From NCBI RefSeq assembly GCF_037076425.1, contig NZ_AP028127.1, forward strand, positions 1,084,001-1,148,000: a stretch of DNA of 64,000 nucleotides. Direction: 5' to 3'. The notes under the pieces are model-generated. The model was not told where the DNA came from and made no database searches. It saw nothing but the letters and a program-made list of their open reading frames with translations. Each line of letters opens with the position of its first letter. Positions within the stretch are counted from its first letter, which is position 1. The translations under genes and the position numbers were made by a program. This stretch comes from Turicibacter faecis. Lineage in GTDB: Bacteria; Bacillota_I; Bacilli_A; MOL361; Turicibacteraceae. Shown piece by piece: positions 5,373 to 52,946 of this stretch.

Positions 5373-5404
5373 GAAACTAAATATGAATGCGTTGATTGAG
5401 AAAG

Positions 5405-5619
5405 AGTAATTTAAGACCTATTTTAAAGAGAGTCGATGGTTGGTGTGAATCGATAAATAACTTGAATGAATGGGCTCAGGAGCGGAACTTGAATAAAAAA
5501 AGTAGGGAACCCGGATAACAACCGTTAACAGTTTGAAGTGAAATAACGACAATCGTTATTTAAATGAGGTGGTACCGCGGTTTTAATCGTCCTCTATCGT
5601 GAGATAGAGGGCTTTTTTT
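5405..5619 (+). promoter_or_regulatory. Tryptophan T-box riboswitch
   Basis: A T-box leader that senses uncharged tRNA. Stem I contains the GGTGTGAA element, and the probable specifier codon TGG (Trp) is at 5471-5473 in the context GAATGGGCTC. The T-box sequence TGAGGTGGTACCGCGG is at 5565-5580, overlapping the antiterminator. The terminator is CCTCTATC (5591-5598) paired with GATAGAGG (5603-5610), followed by a T run. A TGG specifier agrees with the downstream trpS gene: low Trp-tRNA charging should raise synthetase expression. The left limit is approximate. Confidence 0.93.
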
Positions 5620-30101: not shown

Positions 30102-30626
30102 ATGATAAGAAAAGTGCAAACAGATGAATACGGGCTATTAACCGACTTTTTATATGAGGCCATTTTTATTAAAGAGGGAGATGTCCCTCCAGATCGCGCC
30201 ATTGTTTATGAGCCAGAACTGTCACTTTATGTTGATAAATTTGGTGAATCTAGTGACGACGAGGCCCTCTGTTATGTCTTAAATGGCGAAGTAGTTGGCG
30301 CCATATGGGTACGAATAATGGAGGATTATGGCCACATTGATAACCAAACGCCTTCCCTCGCCATGTCCGTTTTAAAGCCATATCGCCATCAAGGAATTGG
30401 TCATCAACTACTACAAGCCATGCTCGATCTACTGGCGAAAAAGGGATATACCGGCGTCTCCCTTTCCGTCTCAAAAGAAAATACCGTCGCCATCCACCTC
30501 TACCAAAAACTCGGATTTATCACCCTCCAAGAAAGAAAAGAAGACCTCCTCATGATGTGCTACCTGGGTTCCCTGCGCCACGTGGGACAATCTTTGATTG
30601 GCATCGTGGCTATCCCCCACTGGTAG
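30102..30626 (+). CDS. GNAT-family N-acetyltransferase
   Basis: A 174-residue acetyl-CoA-dependent acyltransferase. The acetyl-CoA pyrophosphate-binding motif is PYRHQGIGHQLLQAMLDLL (Q/R-x-x-G-x-G/A) at about residues 93-111, followed by GVSLSVSKENTVAIHLYQKLGF, the conserved motif B. The acceptor substrate is unknown. The natural protein probably ended close to MMCYL; the last about 20 residues and the stop codon are supplied by the first unit of the hairpin repeat array that begins at 30566, so the C-terminus has been replaced or extended. Confidence 0.85.
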   Translation: MIRKVQTDEYGLLTDFLYEAIFIKEGDVPPDRAIVYEPELSLYVDKFGESSDDEALCYVLNGEVVGAIWVRIMEDYGHIDNQTPSLAMSVLKPYRHQGIGHQLLQAMLDLLAKKGYTGVSLSVSKENTVAIHLYQKLGFITLQERKEDLLMMCYLGSLRHVGQSLIGIVAIPHW

Positions 30627-31367
30627 GGAGTGGTCCCCTGCGCTAAGGAGTGAGAGAAACGAACTCCTAGCTATCCTCCACTAGTAGGGAATGGTCCCCT
30701 GGCGTACGGGGCATAGCCCGTACATATCCTCAACTGCTAGGGGGTTCCCTGCGCCACGTGGGACAATCTTTGATTGGCATCGTGCCTATCCCCCACTGGT
30801 AGGGAGTGGTCCCCTGCGCTAAGGAGTGAGAGAAACGAACTCTTAGTTATCCTCCACTAGTAGGGAATGGGTCCCCTGGCGTACGGGGCATAGCCCGTAC
30901 ATATCCTCAACTGCTAGGGGGTTCCCTGCGCCACGTGGGACAATCTTTGATTGGCATCGTGGCTATCCCCCACTGGTAGGGAGTGGTCCCCTGCGCTAAT
31001 GAGTGAGAGAAACGAACTCTTAGCTATCCTCCACTAGTAGGGAATGGGTCCCCTGGCGTACGAGGCATAGCCCGTACATATCCTCAACTGCTAGGGGGTT
31101 CCCTGGCGTACGGGGCATAGCCCGTACATATCCTCAACTGCTAGGGAATGGGTCCCCTGGCGTACGAGGCATAGCCCGTACATATCCTCAACTGCTAGGG
31201 AATGGGTCCCCTGGCGTACGAGGCATAGCCCGTACATATCCTCAACTGCTAGGGAATGGGTCCCCTGGCGTACGAGGCATAGCCCGTACATATCCTCAAC
31301 TGCTAGGGAATGGGTCCCCTGGCGTACGAGGCATAGCCCGTACATATCCTCAACTGCTAGGGAATGG
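30566..31367. repeat. Tandem array of 14 hairpin-bearing repeat units
   Basis: Each unit has a left border GGTYCCCTGSG, an internal self-complementary segment, and a right border of the type TATCCYCMACTRSTAGGG followed by AATGG. Three internal hairpins occur. H1 is CCACG...CGTGG (about 32 bases, first at 30578). H2 is CTAAGGAGT...AACTCCTAG (about 28 bases). H3 is GTACGGGGCATAGCCCGTAC (first at 30704). The order is H1-H2-H3 three times (period about 176-177), then five more H3 units, four of them spaced exactly 54 bases apart (31108, 31162, 31216, 31270, 31324). There is no open gene and no cas-like or integrase-like gene nearby. A solitary copy interrupts the ISL3 transposase at 32329-32372. 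Confidence 0.9.
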
Positions 31368-31438
31368 CGATCGAGGTTATTTCAGAAATGACGGGGTTAG
31401 TTATAAACGATGTTAAAAAGTTAGCTAACAAATCATAG
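31364..31438 (+). pseudogene. Tail of a lost gene, possibly Rpn/PD-(D/E)XK transposase-like
   Basis: Directly after the array an open frame reads AIEVISEMTGLVINDVKKL and ends at TAG 31436-31438, before a terminator. This 'E-I-S-E-x-T-G-L-x-x-x-x-V-x-K-L' pattern resembles the C-terminus of Rpn-family recombination-promoting nucleases. The rest of the gene is missing, apparently replaced by the array. Family assignment is tentative. Confidence 0.45.
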
Positions 31439-41549: not shown

Positions 41550-41601
41550 TAAGCCATGGAAATGATAAAAAATTTCCTACTCCAAATAGTTAAAAATACT
41601 T

Positions 41602-41745
41602 ATCTGTATAATTGTTAAGATATGGTTAACTAGTTTCTACCCACGACCGTTATCTCGTGGACTACAGGTAAAACTTTTGTATGTCCTCATCATACATCCT
41701 TTTTACTTGTGAAACACCGAAATGGCCGTCGGTGTTTCTTTTTTT
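41602..41745 (+). promoter_or_regulatory. Guanine-class purine riboswitch with terminator
   Basis: The aptamer shows the invariant purine riboswitch core: ATAAT, P2 GTTAA/TTAAC (41614-41618/41626-41630) enclosing GATATGG, GTTTCTACC, P3 CACGA/TCGTG (41642-41646/41655-41659), and GGACTACAG closing P1. The J3/1 specificity base (position 74 of the xpt numbering) is C at 41662, so guanine/hypoxanthine rather than adenine is expected. A terminator follows: GAAACACCGA (41711-41720) with TCGGTGTTTC (41729-41738) and a T run. It should switch off the downstream gene when guanine is plentiful. Confidence 0.93.
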
Positions 41746-41815: not shown

Positions 41816-42421
41816 ATGAACAAAACGTTAGATTATTATAACCAACAAGCGTCGCTTTATAATGAAATGACGTTTTCGATAGAATTTGACCAAAAACGCG
41901 CCTTTTTCTTAAAGTATCTTCAACCGGGCGCTCATATTTTAGATTTGGGATGTGGATCTGGTCGGGATAGTCGAGCCTTTTTAGCCCAAGGGTATCGCGT
42001 GACTGCCATAGACGGTTCTATTGAACTGTGTAAAATAGCGAGTGAACAATTAGGACACCCTGTTCGTTGTCAACGATTTGAAGAGCTAGACGATGAAGCT
42101 ATTTATGATGGAGTATGGGCGTGTGCCTCATTACTTCATTTACCGACCCCTGTTTTAAAGGATACGATTTATCGGGTAGAACGTGCCTTAAAACCGGGTG
42201 GATATTTTTATGCTTCATTTAAATATGGAACTTATGAAGGGGAGCGGGATGGACGCTACTTTAATGATTTTACTGAAGAAAAATGGAGGGATGTTTTACA
42301 TGACTTCCCATCTTTAACCCTTCAAGAACTCGAGGTTACAATCGATGTCATTCCTGGACGTGAAGAGATTCGGTGGCTAAATGTCATTATGAAAAAGGCG
42401 AGTAAATTAGGAGGGAGATAA
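41816..42421 (+). CDS. Class I SAM-dependent methyltransferase under a guanine riboswitch
   Basis: A 201-residue methyltransferase: YYNQQASLYNEMTFSIE at the start, motif I HILDLGCGSGRDSRAFLAQGY (residues about 40-60), motif II VTAIDGS, and LLHLPTPVLKDTIYRVERALKPGGYFYASFKYG. This matches the Methyltransf_11/25 type. The substrate is unknown. It is the first gene after the guanine riboswitch, an unusual position: the known targets are purine transport and synthesis genes. GAGGAGA precedes the ATG. Confidence 0.87.
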   Translation: MNKTLDYYNQQASLYNEMTFSIEFDQKRAFFLKYLQPGAHILDLGCGSGRDSRAFLAQGYRVTAIDGSIELCKIASEQLGHPVRCQRFEELDDEAIYDGVWACASLLHLPTPVLKDTIYRVERALKPGGYFYASFKYGTYEGERDGRYFNDFTEEKWRDVLHDFPSLTLQELEVTIDVIPGREEIRWLNVIMKKASKLGGR

Positions 42422-44960: not shown

Positions 44961-45038
44961 TTTATAATCAGTAAAACTCAAACTAACCTATTTTTGTATT
45001 TTTCTTTGAAAAAGAGACAGAGTAGGTTAGTTTTTTTA
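44961..45038 (+). ncRNA. Possible short transcript ending in a strong terminator
   Basis: TATAAT near 44962-44967 is followed within 15 bases by AAACTAACCTA (44980-44990), which pairs perfectly with TAGGTTAGTTT (45023-45033), and a seven-T run. No open frame lies inside. This could be a small RNA of about 60 bases or simply a long-loop terminator. Confidence 0.3.
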
Positions 45039-45066
45039 TCATGAAGTGGAACAAAGCACTTCATCC

Positions 45067-45197
45067 CAAAATCCCCTTCATCGTTGCCAACAGGGGCAGG
45101 ATCAAGGGGATTAGAAACAGTTAAGAGATTGATAAAAATAAGATTAACAGAGGGGGATGAATAGTTCGTTTGATGAACTATTCAATATATCTTATGA
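45067..45197. repeat. Dispersed double-hairpin repeat, copy A
   Basis: First hairpin AAATCCCCTT...AAGGGGATT (45069-45112), then a linker of about 50 bases shared with copy B (contains GATTGATAAAAATAAGATTA), then a second hairpin GAATAGTTC (45159-45167)/GAACTATTC (45175-45183), then CAATATATCTTATG. The linker is almost identical in copy B at 49624-49750, while the hairpin arms differ in sequence but keep pairing. Confidence 0.85.
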
Positions 45198-45309
45198 GCG
45201 AATAGGCTTTGCGTGACAGTTGAAAAGAAGGTTTTTTATCAAGGTTATTTTCATTGATAGATGCCGATAGATCTTGTCGAATGCGTGCGTTAGCTGTTGG
45301 GGAATGGTT

Positions 45310-45913
45310 GTTAAATCGCAATTGTCGTTAGTGAGGCAACGTTTCCTCTAGTTGTTGCTCGAATAGAAGAAGAGGCATTAGTCGTTGATGATGGTGATGG
45401 AATGGCTAGTGTAGCGATTAATGGCAGCGTAGTTATGATGGTACTAGACATTGAAATTTCAAAAGTGATGATGGTTATGATAATTCCGCATGAACTATAA
45501 TCGGCAAGTGGAGCAGGGGCACTGAGTATCACCGTCGATGGCCGTGTAGTGATAACAGTTAATGATTCAAATATGTTCTAGGCAGCATATACAAATATCT
45601 CGATGCATGAGCCAAACGGCGGATGGTAGACAGTATTATTTGATACAGCGCACTCGTATGCTCAAACACTCTATATTGAAAACACTAATGATTTACCTAT
45701 TCAAACTCAGTTAATGGTATCGCGTTGCCCTAGTATTAATTGTGCTTGTTTCTTAGGGGAACCACGAGAGGTAATTCGGATTTTGCCTTTCATAATGATA
45801 CGCCTACTAGTTATGTAGGGGGCATTGTTATTAACGAATGTCTAGATCAACTTCTTGAGAATCGTGTTATCGTCATGGAATCTCACAAGTCTGTTAGAAA
45901 TCCAGAGTTGTGA
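45310..45913 (+). pseudogene. Wrecked gene of unknown family
   Basis: A plus-strand frame reads continuously as protein-like sequence (EATFPLVVARIEEEALVVDD, then ALSITVDGRVVITVNDSN, then YTNISMHEPNGGW, VLFDTAHSYAQTLYIENTND). It is interrupted by TAA, TAG and TAG stops and at least one frameshift near 45755, after which it continues as SDFAFHNDTPTSYVGGIV and ends at TGA 45911-45913. The beta-rich, low-charge character suggests an exported or surface protein. No family is recognised and no start codon was located. Confidence 0.6.
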
Positions 45914-46171
45914 TAATACCTGTTAAATGGATGAAAGAGCTAGAGTGCCCCTCATAGCCCTTTTTTATAGATTTATTAAGAAATTAGATAATTGTTCCCG
46001 GGTGAGAGGATGAAAAAATCCTGATGTTACATCGACAGATGCATGCTCTTTTCATCTTTATTGCGACTCGTTCGGCGATAATGTGCCAAAACGAATAAAA
46101 AAACTAAAGAGAAATTGCAATATTTTTATTTATAAAGACATAAAATGTATCGAAAAGAAGGGGGATTGGGA

Positions 46172-46738
46172 ATGAAAAAGTACTGGTATGTTTTTGTCGC
46201 TTTGTTTGTTTGCCTCGTGTCATTGCTGTCGGTATATTTCATCGTTTCGCTTGACGCTTATGATCCTGATGCGCCTGAGGACGAAAAGTTAATTCAAAGG
46301 TACGAAAAAGAAGTAGGGTCTGAAATTGATGTTATTTATGACTTTGTTGAGGATACAGGGGATTCCCTCAGCTATTGGATTGATCATGAAAATAGAACCA
46401 TCACTGATCATGTGACCTTACGTTACTCGATGGAAAATCTGACCGATGAACAAAAGGATAGCCTCGCACGCTTATCCTTAGAACTTGCAACGTTACAGTA
46501 TGAAAAAAATAAGTGGGCGATAAGAAAAGATTTTCCCGGCTATACGCATACAGTCGAGGTGTTAGCGATTAATAATAGCGATCATATTTATAATTTGCAC
46601 TACGACTACGATGTCCTCCGTCAAACCATTACAGACGTAAATCGTGAGATGTCTGAGGCCTCTCAATCCATGGACCAATTTTCAATACAATATATCGAGG
46701 ATCACCACACGACATTGTATTGGCGTAACTATTATTAA
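46172..46738 (+). CDS. Membrane-anchored hypothetical protein
   Basis: A 188-residue protein with one N-terminal membrane anchor (YWYVFVALFVCLVSLLSVYFIVS) and an acidic extracytoplasmic domain (residues 30-188, for example DAPEDEKLIQRYEKEVGSEID). No family is recognised. GGGGGATTGGGA precedes the ATG at 46172, so this start is preferred over 46145. It lies in a gene-poor, decayed region. Confidence 0.65.
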   Translation: MKKYWYVFVALFVCLVSLLSVYFIVSLDAYDPDAPEDEKLIQRYEKEVGSEIDVIYDFVEDTGDSLSYWIDHENRTITDHVTLRYSMENLTDEQKDSLARLSLELATLQYEKNKWAIRKDFPGYTHTVEVLAINNSDHIYNLHYDYDVLRQTITDVNREMSEASQSMDQFSIQYIEDHHTTLYWRNYY

Positions 46739-46869
46739 CGGCTGAGTAAAGAAGCTTTTTTGGGGGAGGAAGAGTAAATTTTGCGTTCATACTAGGAGGT
46801 TTTGTGTTCAAATAGAAACACCGTTGTAGGAAGTGGCACCACTCACCACCTGTGAGGAGACTAAGAGTC

Positions 46870-47047
46870 ATGAGTTTAAAGAAATGAAGATGATTTTGAT
46901 TTAGAACAAGCCGAGTTATTGTTAAGTGAATTGGATTCGTTTTTTTCGGAAAAAGAGATAGAGGATGATTCAATATTGACGAGATTTGACAACTTAGGGA
47001 AGTCATTGTGCATGGGAGCACGAGATGAAAATCAATACAAGAATTAA
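46870..47047 (+). pseudogene. Frameshifted small acidic protein
   Basis: GAGGAGAC lies before an ATG that reads MSLKK and then a stop. Skipping one base gives NEDDFDLEQAELLLSELDSF and continues to TAA 47045-47047, directly before a strong terminator. The ribosome site, acidic helical sequence and terminator suggest a once real gene of about 58 residues broken by one extra base near 46884. Confidence 0.55.
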
Positions 47048-47048
47048 G

Positions 47049-47072
47049 GCGGAATGATTCCGCTTTTTTTTA
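47049..47072 (+). terminator. Terminator of the broken small gene
   Basis: GCGGAA (47049-47054) pairs with TTCCGC (47058-47063), followed by eight T. Confidence 0.85.
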
Positions 47073-47764
47073 TGCTGTTTAGAGCATCAAACGGCTATCA
47101 ATCACGTGGTCGCAGGCGTAGGAGGACTTCCGTTATCATGAAATTTCTTCTTTAAAGCGTGAGAAGCTTTTTTAAAAATATAAAAATTAGATAATTTTTA
47201 AATAACGGAGAGGATGAAAATCCAAAAGAGATGGGAAGAACTAAAAATTCTACGATGAATAGTCCACAGAACGCTCAACGTCTCCTTTTTATTTCCATTA
47301 TAAGGATTTTAAAAACGAGCAGAAGACTTCGCATCATGCCTTTATTTTTCAACAACTGCTATTCATTGTTTTTTACGCGTTTGAAAGGGTTCTTTTGAAA
47401 AAATGATCATAAGTCATATTGAGGGTGCAAAAAACATAAAATTATCATGTGTTTCGACTCACTGTAGGGATAGGATGATCATATTCGAACGAGAAATTTA
47501 AAAATTTGACGAGCAAGGAGGAGCTTTATCGGGCTTCAACGGGGATGTGGCGTGAAAACGATCGTACTATAAATGAGTTTAATAAAGTAGCCGTGAGTTA
47601 AATGAGGGATCTCAGGATGGATAAATAGGGTGGGAGGAAATAGAAGTACCCATTGAAGCAATGAACTGCATTAAATCTGGAATCAAGCGCTATTTACTTT
47701 AAGATGAAGTTCTTCCTATCGGATGAATATGCCGATAGGTGAAATGTAAAAGGGAGGCGAAGAG
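47073..47764. other. Long gap with no supported gene
   Basis: About 690 bases, all frames broken. Visible items: a copy of the recurrent AAATTAGATAATT motif at 47184-47196, and a perfect hairpin CCTATCGG...CCGATAGG at about 47715-47740, just before the ribosome site of the next gene. The hairpin might affect its translation or end an upstream transcript. Confidence 0.5.
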
Positions 47765-48895
47765 ATGATTAAAAAAGTTTTAGTTGCATGCTTACTTCTA
47801 ACCTTGATGGGATGTCAAAGGCTTAAGGACGAGGTCGTAGAAAGGTTTTGGCATCCCAAACAGGAGCAAAGTGAATTGAAAGAGTCAACTAAGGAGGTTA
47901 AGGAAAGAAAAGAGATCACACAAACTTTAACGAATTCTGATTTACAGCAGTTAAATGTTTATTTGAGTCATTTAAGTAATAGTGGGTTTGAAACGTATAA
48001 TAAAGAAAATCTCAATCATGATCAACTATTAGAGTTCGGCCTTTGGTTATATCTGGGGAATATGGTGAAAGTAGAATCTAAAGAAATAGATGGCGTTTAT
48101 TATAGCGTTTTTAATTATGATGAGTTTAGCCATAAAATAAGTCAATATTTTGATTGTGAATTAGAGAAAAAAGGCAACGATGAATGGCTGTTTCAAGATA
48201 ATAATTATTATCATCCGTTATTAGAAAGCGAATATCCGCTCAATACGGTCACTCAAGTTGATCGTATATATGATAATGGGGATAATAGCTTTTTAGTTGA
48301 AGGGCTGGTTTATCGATTTGAATCATCTATGGACACTCATATTTATGAACAGTATTTGCAACCCAAATCCACATGGAGTCCTTCAATGGAAAGTGAATTA
48401 ATCGGAAATATCACGACCACGCTCGTTTATTCAGATAAATTAAACCATTATGTTATTGAAGATTATCAAGCTAAGTATTATCCGAGCGACGAAGGGGTAG
48501 AGAGTGAATCGAGCAATAACGAAGAATTCTCCTATAGCTATAAAAAGGACTACCTAGATAAACTAGACTTTATAGAAGAAGGCATGAGTGATTTAGATTA
48601 CCTCTATGATAGTGGAACAACAGTCGACTTCGTTGAGGCAGAAGGAACACGCCTTAAAAGATGGGATGACATGCTAAATGAAATATATAGCTTATTAAAA
48701 ACTCAACTTACAGAAAGTGAGATGAAAGAATTAAAGAGTAAACAACTAGCTTGGATCGAATATCGAGATAAGACTGCCGAGAATGAAGCAAATGCAGCAG
48801 GGGGCGGATCCCTAACGACCGTCGTCTACAATAGCACATTAGCTACCCTTACAAAAGAACGATGTTATGAATTAGTAAACACCTACCTCGAATAG
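47765..48895 (+). CDS. Lipoprotein with C-terminal LprI/DUF1311-like domain
   Basis: A 376-residue exported lipoprotein: signal peptide with lipobox LMGC (Cys about residue 18), a basic/acidic linker, a central domain (60-250) of unknown type, and a C-terminal domain (about 285-376). The last matches LprI/DUF1311: LKRWDDMLNEIYSLLKTQL, LKSKQLAWIEYRDKTAENEA, GGGSLTTVVYNSTLATLTKERCYEL. The normal cysteine pair of that domain is reduced to one Cys. GGGAGGCG precedes the ATG. Function is unknown. Confidence 0.8.
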   Translation: MIKKVLVACLLLTLMGCQRLKDEVVERFWHPKQEQSELKESTKEVKERKEITQTLTNSDLQQLNVYLSHLSNSGFETYNKENLNHDQLLEFGLWLYLGNMVKVESKEIDGVYYSVFNYDEFSHKISQYFDCELEKKGNDEWLFQDNNYYHPLLESEYPLNTVTQVDRIYDNGDNSFLVEGLVYRFESSMDTHIYEQYLQPKSTWSPSMESELIGNITTTLVYSDKLNHYVIEDYQAKYYPSDEGVESESSNNEEFSYSYKKDYLDKLDFIEEGMSDLDYLYDSGTTVDFVEAEGTRLKRWDDMLNEIYSLLKTQLTESEMKELKSKQLAWIEYRDKTAENEANAAGGGSLTTVVYNSTLATLTKERCYELVNTYLE

Positions 48896-49040
48896 ATTTA
48901 ATGTCAATACGAATAAGGGACGATGGACTAACTATCGCTAATGAGAAGATCAAATGAGAGGAAATGACGCCGATAGTTTAAGGGGTAAACTTGAACTTGC
49001 ATCAAGCATTCATCCGTTCTCGTTTTTCAGATGTATAAAA

Positions 49041-49110
49041 AAACAACGGGTTGTAGGGGAATCCGTTGTTTAATAAAAGGCGTTTATGGGGGAATAAACG
49101 TCTTTTTTAA
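49041..49110 (+). terminator. Two tandem hairpins after the lipoprotein gene
   Basis: AAACAACGG (49041-49049)/CCGTTGTTT (49063-49071) and AGGCGTTTAT (49078-49087)/ATAAACGTCT (49094-49103), the second followed by a T run. Confidence 0.8.
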
Positions 49111-49142
49111 TCTAAGAAATTTAGGAAGAGTTAAAAAGTTAG

Positions 49143-49514
49143 CTAGCAACTTTCTTTTGCTGTTTTCATCGCCTCGTTTAAATGGGCCAATATGATGTTC
49201 ATCGCGCGAATCAGATTAGAAAAGCGGGTATAGGTGGAACTCCCTTCTTTCGCGCGACTAAGGCCTGACGTACTCTTATTTTTGATAGAGGTAATTTGGG
49301 CAATCGCTTGCTCTAGATCCTCCTTTGAATAGGAACATGTTTTATTGAGTAGAAGATTCTGGGCGATGTATAAAGCCTTAATCCTGTTTTTAGAGAGCGA
49401 AAATGAAGGAGAACCCTCCTTTAATTTAGGCTGTATTTTTTCACAATTCACAATCGATGATTCAATAACTTTTAAAGTGTCCTTCATTTGTTGTTCTGTC
49501 AATGAATCCATCAC
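49143..49514 (-). CDS. Hypothetical helical protein
   Basis: A 123-residue soluble, all-helical basic protein (LTEQQMKDTLKVIESSIVNC, RIKALYIAQNLLLNK, FSNLIRAMNIILAHLNEAM). AAAGGAGG lies about 6 bases before the GTG/ATG start on the minus strand, supporting it as a real gene. No family is recognised. It may be a small regulatory or toxin-antitoxin-like protein, but nothing in the sequence shows this. Confidence 0.6.
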   Translation of the reverse strand: MMDSLTEQQMKDTLKVIESSIVNCEKIQPKLKEGSPSFSLSKNRIKALYIAQNLLLNKTCSYSKEDLEQAIAQITSIKNKSTSGLSRAKEGSSTYTRFSNLIRAMNIILAHLNEAMKTAKESC

Positions 49515-49623
49515 GGTATCCTCCTTTATTGAAATATCCCTCTATTATAACAAACATACGCACTTCAAGCGATGTTATGAGGTGGGTTAGTTTTCTTAAT
49601 TTTTATTAGAGGTAAACATAGAA

Positions 49624-49750
49624 AAATCCCCATTCTTGTTGTTGGGCGGTAACAAGAATGGGGATTGAAAACGGTTAAGGGATTGATAAAAATAAGATTA
49701 ACAGAGGGTGATGAATCAATCGCTTGGCGATCGATTCAATATATTTTATG
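49624..49750. repeat. Dispersed double-hairpin repeat, copy B
   Basis: First hairpin AATCCCCATTCTTGTT (49625-49640) pairs perfectly with AACAAGAATGGGGATT (49651-49666). The shared linker follows (GATTGATAAAAATAAGATTA inside), then a second hairpin GAATCAATCG (49713-49722)/CGATCGATTC (49727-49736), then CAATATATTTTATG. Compare copy A at 45067-45197. Confidence 0.85.
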
Positions 49751-49790
49751 CTTCTGCTACCGTTTTGTGAGTGTCATCGGGCTCCTTTTT

Positions 49791-50513: not shown

Positions 50514-51098
50514 ATGAGTCGTCAGAAATTGAATGTGAAAAAGCTAGCTAAAGTTAAGAAGCGATATGGCTTAATCGGGGTCATTTTTGTTATCGTGGCA
50601 ACCCTGGCCGGTAGTTATGTTGAAGATTATCTTTCTTCACGGTCTGCGGCGTCGCTTCAAGTGTTTGAAACGAATGGGATTGAACTTGAGCCGGTGATTT
50701 TAAAACGTGTCGTCGATGGAGATACGTTAGTCGTGACGAATGCAAATCGGGAGGAAGTTCGAGTTCGCCTCATCGGAATGGATACGCCTGAAAGTGTGCA
50801 TCCGGATCAAGAAAAAAATACGGAAGCGGGCGAGTTGGCGAGCCAGTATACGAAGTCAGTGTTAACCGTTGGACAGACGCTATATTTGGAGTATGATGTT
50901 CAAAAAACGGATCGTTATCATCGCGTGCTAGCCTATGTGTGGTTAACCGATGATGTCAATCCAGATGATATCGCCACGAACATGTTAAATGCGAAATTGG
51001 TGGCCGACGGCTATGCGGTGGCGAAAGAGTTTAAGCCGAATGTCAAATATTCGAGTCTTTTAAAACAGTTAGAATCAGCCGCGAACAACGAGCGCTAA
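50514..51098 (+). CDS. Secreted/membrane-anchored thermonuclease-like protein (SNase)
   Basis: A 194-residue staphylococcal-nuclease-fold protein. An N-terminal anchor (YGLIGVIFVIVATLAGSYV) is followed by the nuclease domain: VVDGDTLVV (metal-binding Asp), VRVRLIGMDTPE (catalytic Arg, then Asp and Glu), KNTEAGELASQYTKSVL, and YDVQKTDRYHRVLAYVW (second catalytic Arg region). It degrades nucleic acid outside the cytoplasm. AGGAGAG precedes the ATG. A terminator follows. Confidence 0.92.
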   Translation: MSRQKLNVKKLAKVKKRYGLIGVIFVIVATLAGSYVEDYLSSRSAASLQVFETNGIELEPVILKRVVDGDTLVVTNANREEVRVRLIGMDTPESVHPDQEKNTEAGELASQYTKSVLTVGQTLYLEYDVQKTDRYHRVLAYVWLTDDVNPDDIATNMLNAKLVADGYAVAKEFKPNVKYSSLLKQLESAANNER

Positions 51099-51444: not shown

Positions 51445-51473
51445 TTGAACATTTGTTCGAATTTGTTTATAAT
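51445..51473 (+). promoter_or_regulatory. SOS-type promoter with LexA (DinR) box
   Basis: TTGAAC (51445-51450), 17-base spacer, TATAAT (51468-51473). The -35 overlaps GAACATTTGTTCG (51447-51459), which fits the Gram-positive LexA box CGAACN4GTTCG except for the first base. The following UvrX/YolD operon should therefore be DNA-damage induced. Confidence 0.88.
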
Positions 51474-51497
51474 AAAGGAAGAAAAGGAGGGAATTGG

Positions 51498-52946
51498 ATG
51501 AAACAGCGGGTGTATATGGCGATTGATCTGAAAAGTTTTTATGCTTCGGTGGAATGTCGTGAACGCGGTCTCAATCCGATGACGACCCATTTAGTTGTTG
51601 CCGATGAAGGTCGGAGTGAGAAAACAATTTGCCTAGCGGTTACTCCCTCGCTCAAATCATTAGGCCTTTCGGGGCGTCCGCGTTTGTTTGAGGTCGAGCA
51701 AAAAGTTCAAGAGGCAAATGCCATCCGTAAACAAAGAGCCCGTTGTTCATATTTGACGCAGGCCTCATCTGATGCCCAAGCATTGAGGGCATCGCCTGAA
51801 CTGGCGATTTCCTATATCGTTGCTACGCCAAGAATGGCTTACTATTTGGAGTATAGTACCCGAATTTACGAGGTGTATTTGAGGTATATCGCACCGGAAG
51901 ACATTCATGTGTATAGTATTGACGAGGTGTTTATCGATGCCACCGACTACTTAACACTTTACCAAATGACGGCGCACGAGTTAGCAAGGACCATCATTCA
52001 CGACGTTTTAAAGACAACCGGCATTACGGCAACTGCTGGGATAGGCCCTAATTTGTACTTATGTAAAGTTGCGATGGATATTGTCGCGAAGAAGATGCCT
52101 CCCGATACCTTTGGCGTGCGGATTGCTGAGCTTGATGAAACATCTTATCGAACCTTATTGTGGCATCATCGTCCGCTCACGTCATTTTGGCGGGTTGGAA
52201 AAGGTTATGCCGCTAAACTGGAGGCCCATGGGATGTATACGATGGGGGATGTGGCTCGGATGTCGTTAACTGAGCGCGGGGAACAATTGCTGTATCACCT
52301 ATTTGGTGTGAATGCCGAACTCCTGATTGATCACGCATGGGGTGTTGAGTCGTGTACCATGGCGGATATTAAAGCCTATGAACCTAAACATCACAGCATC
52401 AGCTCGGGTCAAATTCTACCGACAGGGTATCCGATTAATAAAGCACGATTAGTCGTCCGCGAAATGGTCGAATCTCTCGTGTTTGAGTTGCTCGAAAAGG
52501 GACTCGTGACTCCTTCCGTTGGATTAACCCTTTGTTACGATTCCACGCGCGGTGTTCCTAACGCAAGTCGAGGCACTAAAAAATTGGCGTCGTACACGTC
52601 TTCGACCCGATTACTGAAGCAGGCCGTGACCACTTTATTTGATGATATCGTGGATCAAAGACAACGCGTTCGTCGAGTATCTCTTGTTTTTTCTGAAGTG
52701 AGGAACGCGCAAGAAATCAACGACGCTCCTGTGGTTCAACAACTCGATTTATTTACAAACGTTCAGGTGTTGCAACAAAAGGAGCAAGAACAGGAGGCAG
52801 ACCGTCAAAAGGAACGTCGGCAACAAGAGGCAATGTTACAGATCCGTCAGAAGTTTGGAAAGAACGCCATTTTAAAAGGAATGAATCTCGAAGAAGGAGC
52901 TACTGGAAGAGATCGCAATAATCAAATAGGAGGACATCGCGCTTAA
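51498..52946 (+). CDS. uvrX: Y-family DNA polymerase, UvrX/YqjW type
   Basis: A 482-residue error-prone translesion polymerase. Catalytic acids: D10 in MAIDLKSFYASVECRERG, and the SIDEVFID motif near residues 140-147 (Asp-Glu). TAGIGPNLYLCKVAMDIVAKK is the typical helix-hairpin-helix region. The type is the UvrX/YqjW subgroup found with YolD proteins on Bacillus plasmids and chromosomes. The frame opens upstream at 51453, but that lies inside the LexA-controlled promoter; AAAGGAGGG fits the ATG at 51498. Confidence 0.93.
   Translation: MKQRVYMAIDLKSFYASVECRERGLNPMTTHLVVADEGRSEKTICLAVTPSLKSLGLSGRPRLFEVEQKVQEANAIRKQRARCSYLTQASSDAQALRASPELAISYIVATPRMAYYLEYSTRIYEVYLRYIAPEDIHVYSIDEVFIDATDYLTLYQMTAHELARTIIHDVLKTTGITATAGIGPNLYLCKVAMDIVAKKMPPDTFGVRIAELDETSYRTLLWHHRPLTSFWRVGKGYAAKLEAHGMYTMGDVARMSLTERGEQLLYHLFGVNAELLIDHAWGVESCTMADIKAYEPKHHSISSGQILPTGYPINKARLVVREMVESLVFELLEKGLVTPSVGLTLCYDSTRGVPNASRGTKKLASYTSSTRLLKQAVTTLFDDIVDQRQRVRRVSLVFSEVRNAQEINDAPVVQQLDLFTNVQVLQQKEQEQEADRQKERRQQEAMLQIRQKFGKNAILKGMNLEEGATGRDRNNQIGGHRA

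Follow-up and report, generated by a model that had tools for sequence, protein, structure and literature searches.

Paired-hairpin units beside cargo genes in Turicibacter faecis and its relatives: candidate spacers between exchangeable cassettes

Two hairpin repeats, copy A and copy B, lie in a 64,000-nt stretch of Turicibacter faecis DNA (the window; contig NZ_AP028127.1, positions 1,084,001 to 1,148,000). They belong to a family of structured units. The stems of these units covary, the units cluster beside cargo genes, and in one pair of cassettes the border of similarity falls inside the unit. Our preferred reading, held with slightly more belief than doubt, takes A and B as worn copies and the hairpin units of the genus as terminator or insulator spacers between cargo cassettes, which also supply homology for exchange. 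Here and in closely related species, the spacer probably halts transcription and provides a common border for recombination. The swappable cargo genes that the spacers border include many anti-virus defence genes. How such genes gather and are reshuffled in mobile islands is an open question, and a repeat that marks the borders gives a handle on it. With such a repeat, cassettes can be cut from genomes by rule, new cargo sites can be predicted, and exchange becomes testable in strain collections.

Copies A and B in the window

Copy A (45064-45206) and copy B (49619-49760) have a linker and two hairpins, h1 and h2, in common. On re-reading the sequence, both lie where the first-pass annotation had placed them (45067-45197 and 49624-49750). 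The linker that it described as shared has a 20-nt core found exactly twice in the window; in shuffled sequence, with up to 3 mismatches allowed, matches average 0.08. A and B form a gapless alignment of 91 nt with 85% identity. Each folds far better than its dinucleotide shuffles (z of -5.0 for A and -5.3 for B; 0 of 200 shuffles as good). Both hairpins are present in the minimum-energy fold of copy B. In copy A the centroid structure includes both, and the minimum-energy fold pairs h2 differently.

All parts of the two copies are read on the plus strand. Upstream of copy A, sequence and fold reveal a terminator-like hairpin (AAACTAACCTA .. TAGGTTAGTTTTTTT, 44980-45038) that is the counterpart of T-b in the island unit described below; the segment 44976-45045 folds at -18.6 kcal/mol. 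A short hairpin, ATGAAGTG..CACTTCAT (45041-45064; fold -9.2 kcal/mol), lies between it and h1 of copy A (AATCCCCTT..AAGGGGATT, 45070-45112), which is recognized by sequence, by fold and by the covariance models R1 and R2. The long linker follows at 45113-45155, carrying GATTGATAAAAATAAGATTA at 45127-45146, and is common to B and to a copy in G003 C10. In the h2 alignment, h2 of copy A (TGAATAGTTC..GAACTATTCA, 45158-45184) has all its pairs formed. Upstream of copy B, a remnant of the right half of the upstream terminator (GGGTTAGTTTTCTT, 49584-49597) was recognized in the sequence by eye. The h1 of copy B (49625-49666; sequence, fold, R1 and R2) is a 16-bp stem without mismatch, AATCCCCATTCTTGTT/AACAAGAATGGGGATT, whose minus strand carries a T-rich tail. 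The long linker at 49667-49709 has GATTGATAAAAATAAGATTA at 49681-49700, and h2 (TGAATCAATCGC..GCGATCGATTCA, 49712-49738) has a single central A-C mismatch in the h2 alignment. The arms had been described as different between A and B yet still paired. They are, except that the B h2 arms GAATCAATCGC/GCGATCGATTC contain that one mid-stem A-C mismatch. A and B are real family members, but not dramatic by themselves.

A genus-level family concentrated in cargo clusters

The first-pass annotation had proposed a dispersed family, to be given up if only two copies existed and no covariation was significant. Further copies exist beyond A and B, and covariation is strong. A search with the linker, which it had suggested, returns the exact linker only twice in the window's own genome (G000), but BLAST finds weaker relatives of h2, and these also carry h1. 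The genus set comprises five genomes, one per species. R1, a covariance model built from seven copies, gives ten matches above 70 bits in G000 and one in G003. Seven of these 11 strong copies trained the model, so four are new. Below them, scores drop to 31.8 bits for the next match in G000 and to 37.3 for the best of the weaker matches across the genus. Copy A scores 98.0 bits (45064-45206) and copy B 106.7 bits (49619-49760), both being members of the training set.

Eight of the ten strong G000 copies, all except A and B, fall in two stretches at 655-663 kb and 2001-2016 kb. These eight have a short linker. The linker claimed to be conserved is indeed common to A and B, but its long form is found only in a subtype made up of A, B and one G003 copy. 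As judged from the aligned copies, the constant part of the family is the hairpin pair, which in the islands is part of a larger unit with putative terminators upstream.

R2 models h1 only, with loci counted once for both strands at E 0.01. It finds 11 loci in G000, 19 in G001, 13 in G004, 3 in G003, 1 each in G005 and G006, and 0 in G002 and G007; h1 is thereby present in four of the five genus species. The loci are tightly clustered. All 11 in G000 are inside the two islands, 18 of 19 in G001 are at 95-104 and 443-464 kb, and 12 of 13 in G004, which gave no sequence to the training set, are at 650-704 kb. Serine-recombinase islands are not the only setting, since 10 of the 19 G001 loci and 10 of the 13 G004 loci lie outside them. 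Copies A and B, absent from the R2 training set, barely score (A, 16.5 bits, E 0.028; B, 17.2 bits, E 0.015). Both are missing most of the upstream unit: A retains a T-b-like hairpin and B part of one.

In a class-wide draw of 198 genomes searched with R2 at 1e-6, eight match. Four of these are from the genus, one is G005 and three are distant genomes. Outside the family, h1 occurs in 3 of 190 genomes at a single locus each, so the h1 hairpin alone is not unique. An order-wide search returns the same eight genomes as the family search. The exact linker has no match in a wider genome contig collection, the h1 and h2 patterns have none in a viral contig collection, and the whole unit has none in phage or plasmid collections. 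The 16-base T-b pattern matches eight viral contigs, and chance matches are expected at such a pattern length. No description of the family was found in the accessible literature, which covers PMC4177764, PMC4503421 and PMC5398294 but few subscription papers.

The repeats had also been likened to an array near 30.6 kb. That likeness is not supported: R1 and R2 give no match there at the E-value limits used, and the array consists of 177-nt and 54-nt units in tandem. It spans 30517-31421 of the window, at the 3' end of an ORF at 30102-30626.

Architecture and covariation of the unit

In the islands of its own genome the unit is about 270 nt long, as seen when 11 copies are aligned with their flanks. 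Its order is the same in seven of eight island copies: GGCTAATCATG..CATCATTAGCCTTTTCTTA (T-a), TCCCGCTAC, AACTAACC..GGTTAGTTTTT (T-b), a short hairpin, h1, linker, h2 and a TTATAG-like end. Within these seven, T-a is lost in I1b, and the TTATAG-like end is changed in I1a and replaced in I2b. The eighth copy, I2a, is without the upstream part. T-a and T-b are two terminator-like hairpins on the coding strand, upstream of h1, and fold in one copy at -20.0 and -31.7 kcal/mol, respectively. In G001 and G004 the shared sequence is longer, reaching about 550 nt, and h1 sits close to its middle. On reading by eye, the element seems to have the orientation of the next downstream gene in nearly all cases.

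The suggestion that structure is under selection is supported by covarying stems in both hairpins. Covariation, measured on aligned sequences against shuffle, slide and arm-swap controls, is strong in h1 and present in h2. The h1 alignment, A3, holds 23 sequences from three species, 16 of them distinct by their outer arms; it leaves out A and B, whose tips have diverged, as well as two miscut rows of alignment A2. In A3, 94.3% of cells are paired, 11 of 17 pairs have changed on both sides, and both-side changes affect 61 cells. None of 500 shuffles reaches these pairing and change counts, although the aligned sequences are related and shuffle counts are therefore not probabilities. In the outer stem, 10 of 12 pairs have changed on both sides. 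Sliding the partner arm by 1-3 columns lowers pairing to 36-52%. Swapping whole arms among the 16 distinct hairpins, drawn from the same 23 rows, gives 71% pairing versus 95%.

The tip of h1, GTTG/CAAC, is nearly invariant (CAAYNGTTG..CAACNRTTG), while the lower stem is free to vary but stays paired. In none of the 16 distinct hairpins do the two positions immediately under the tip both form Watson-Crick pairs. A lower stem that changes in pairs under a near-fixed tip is a clean case of selected structure. For h2, with A and B included (11 rows, 10 distinct), both-side changes occur in 5 of 12 pairs, a count reached by 0 of 500 shuffles. Its three central pairs contain a mismatch in 9 of 10 rows, the exception being A.

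Terminator-like features

The tails of h1 were scored at 49 loci, a set that leaves out A, B and locus L132 4060. A T-rich tail on at least one strand is present at 35 of 49 loci, versus 29.5% of random sites, and on both strands at 16 of 49 versus 2.4%, the random sites being unmatched for hairpin context. The G+C-rich stem and T-rich tract of an intrinsic terminator are seen in h1, by its tails, and in T-a and T-b, by sequence and fold. A stock terminator scanner does not report h1; its loop rule of 3-8 excludes most of these hairpins. As between RNA and single-stranded DNA, the T-rich tails after h1 favour RNA terminators.

A promoter-like sequence, TTTAAA-17-TATAAT, lies at L053 14163-14191, downstream of the unit in a cassette with an HNH gene. 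Counts of promoter-like sites are the same as in shuffles. The combination of h2 with the TTATAG end was considered as a cassette promoter and given up as the leading reading, as its -35 side is not kept and the better promoter-like site is downstream. Together, the T-rich tails, the T-a and T-b folds and the promoter-like site after the unit are what a predicted insulator would have.

Another terminator-like hairpin, of about 60 nt, is found at 49071-49133 of the window. It recurs at three places in G000 (641550, 1151103 and 2015197) and at two in G003 C35; two of the recurrences are at or in the islands.

Island cargo and a probably exchanged cassette

Both G000 islands carry large serine recombinases with Resolvase, Recombinase and Zn-ribbon domains. 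Phage-like genes are present too: an amidase in the first island, and a single-strand binding protein and holin in the second. No phage structural genes were noticed on reading the island ORFs by eye. The cargo between elements includes a type II methyltransferase with a restriction enzyme, as well as a second methyltransferase accompanied by GmrSD-type and HEPN proteins. An HNH protein, a UzuA-like GIY-YIG protein and a type IIG enzyme together with a helicase also belong to it.

The HNH gene is present in both islands with a unit on either side, and its two copies, compared over 789 nt, are 97.1% identical. Between islands, the unit after the gene is 78.6% identical and the unit before it 86.7%, the highest of all pairs among seven units (72.9-86.7%; I2a excluded). 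Past the flanking units, similarity drops below 50%. The drop from 97.1% in the gene to 78.6% in the downstream unit, a value within the general range for units, suggests that the exchange broke inside the unit. Since the upstream pair is the most alike, part of that unit may travel with the gene. A further block (L053 15372-16051, L054 14982-14304) comes after a unit in each island, but in a different order. In all, one cassette has both borders in units and one block has a single border there. The genomes compared are one per species, hence no empty site is seen. The HNH protein has one distant relative in the genome contig collection (an Izimaplasma MAG, 42% over part of the protein) and none in the viral contig collection.

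Four serine-recombinase islands in three species seem to be inserted at or next to Walker A (GxGKT) coding sequence (L070, L071, L054, L072, L074, L075, L129, L059). The targets are a type IV restriction-helicase gene (G000, G004), a comFA-like gene (G000) and comGA (G001); the Walker A pattern was not found in the right-hand fragment of G004. Both comGA fragments are named by Pfam, comFA by context, and the G004 recombinases by sequence likeness only.

Proposed role of the units and alternatives

We infer that the units terminate transcription and that homologous recombination is the agent of exchange. Transcription arriving from either side would be stopped, insulating each cassette. The next gene or gene set follows the unit; in the single case inspected, it has its own promoter-like site past the unit. 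Dispersed and alike, the units could let homologous recombination swap, duplicate or delete whole cassettes and leave the genes uncut. The same stems and T-rich tails would also suit ordinary intrinsic terminators of foreign genes, which arrived with the cargo, have no part in exchange, and pile up in islands since foreign genes are there. The hairpin near 49071-49133 is likewise scattered in the genome and in G003, as this would lead one to expect. We nevertheless regard this reading as unlikely: whole units are alike (72.9-86.7%) between unrelated cassettes, and the HNH cassette has its border inside a unit. Covariation of both hairpins and the TTATAG-like end conserved after h2 would be at home in a structured RNA, regulatory or cis-acting, made from its own promoter. 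Such an RNA is distinctly unlikely, given the strong terminator-like hairpins directly upstream, promoter-like sites no commoner than in shuffles, and the lack of any Rfam family above gathering score among the window elements and six island or array loci.

The near-constant tip of h1, the lower stem that is free yet paired, and the non-Watson-Crick step under the tip in 16 of 16 distinct hairpins could instead mark folded-DNA recombination sites, attC-like, in which tip and step are recognized by a recombinase acting in trans. The differing cassette order of the islands would agree with this. An integron integrase, however, is over cut-off in 0 of 5 genomes, plain homology is enough to account for an exchange in which no exact crossover point is shown, and the T-rich tails suit terminators; we consider such sites very unlikely. 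Taken further, the clusters would be an integrase-less system that moves unit-plus-gene defence cassettes through a trans recombinase, perhaps one of the islands' serine recombinases or one from the host. The lower stem could vary freely in such a system, and the tip and weak step would be kept. We hold this scheme to be highly improbable. Scarcely credible is spread by a transposase, as a palindromic repeat of the REP/BIME or MITE kind. Paired hairpins that are dispersed and have central mismatches bring it to mind, as do Y1-type transposase genes in four of five genomes, but the seven Y1 genes of G000 are far from the element clusters and have identical scores, like multi-copy insertion sequences of an IS200-like element, and the copies are almost confined to cargo clusters.

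Relation to known systems

Compared by description, the spacers that we prefer are closest in working to the promoter early stem-loop (PeSL) elements of T4-type phages. PeSLs are repeated intergenic stem-loop elements on the borders of cargo genes, and the shuffling of genes among relatives is attributed to them (Arbiol et al. 2010 and Comeau et al. 2014, as cited in PMC4503421). The units too are repeated intergenic stem-loop elements bordering cargo. PeSLs carry an early promoter, whereas the promoter-like site here lies downstream of the unit. The units differ further in having several hairpins and in being bacterial, located in serine-recombinase islands and in clusters on the chromosome.

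The BOX elements of Streptococcus pneumoniae are composite, modular intergenic stem-loop repeats spread over the genome. The likeness, by description only, is that of modular intergenic stem-loop repeats in a Gram-positive genome; the units here, in contrast, are almost confined to cargo clusters. Phage morons have their own promoter and terminator. They resemble the present arrangement as added cargo behind a lysis module, each insulated, but here one unit type recurs between different cargo genes across two islands.

Integron attC arrays also have hairpin-forming repeats between cargo genes, with a cassette order that varies between arrays. They differ in that the unit here has terminator-like hairpins and its cassettes may hold several genes. 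The integron itself was rejected on profile TIGR02249, over cut-off in none of the five genomes. Tyrosine-recombinase matches in these five are only sub-threshold, and such matches are also seen in all 14 control genomes. The invariant RYYYAAC and GTTRRRY boxes of attC sites were likewise rejected for h1, whose arms read AAY and RTT with the last or first base variable and whose outer stem pairs change. REP/BIME elements, which have an associated REP transposase (RAYT, Y1 family) next to the repeats, were rejected on the positions of the seven Y1_Tnp matches in G000, none of which is inside the regions at 643-668, 1129-1134 or 2000-2023 kb.

The window locus as the probable remains of a cargo array

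The interval between A and B holds two ORFs as cargo, both on the plus strand. One, at 46145-46738 (197 aa), has no Pfam or NCBIfam family; the other, at 47765-48895 (376 aa), has a C-terminal LprI domain (PF07007, E 7.4e-19). Over 48082-48479, the LprI-domain gene has DNA-level relatives in G003 C49 and at two G000 positions, 416852 and 418217. Downstream of B is an SNase-domain gene (50514-51098, plus strand; PF00565) with a DNA match in G003 at L057 2565-2937, ahead of which lies an element at L057 2320-2470. The G003 copy with the long linker sits between a type IV restriction-like gene and an SNase gene.

Two further plus-strand genes anchor the locus. The left anchor (41816-42421) is SAM methyltransferase-like, on weak NCBIfam methyltransferase matches that are all under cut-off, and matches G001 438583-439163, before the G001 cluster, and G004 623786-624368. 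The right anchor (51453-52946) is DNA polymerase IV-like, with NCBIfam under cut-off, and matches G001 459445-460495, inside the cluster span. The G001 cluster at 443-464 kb thus starts between the anchor-gene matches and extends past the second. As judged from reading the ORFs, its putative cargo includes an aldo/keto reductase, a GNAT enzyme, a MerR-like regulator, a transporter and an IS256-like transposase. With one anchor match before this cluster and the other inside its span, and with an SNase gene behind the long-linker copy in G003 too, A and B are most likely remnants of a larger cargo array, at a site that still holds one in a relative.

Elsewhere in the window, a T-box leader (5383-5597) and a purine riboswitch (41584-41684) are both over the Rfam gathering score.
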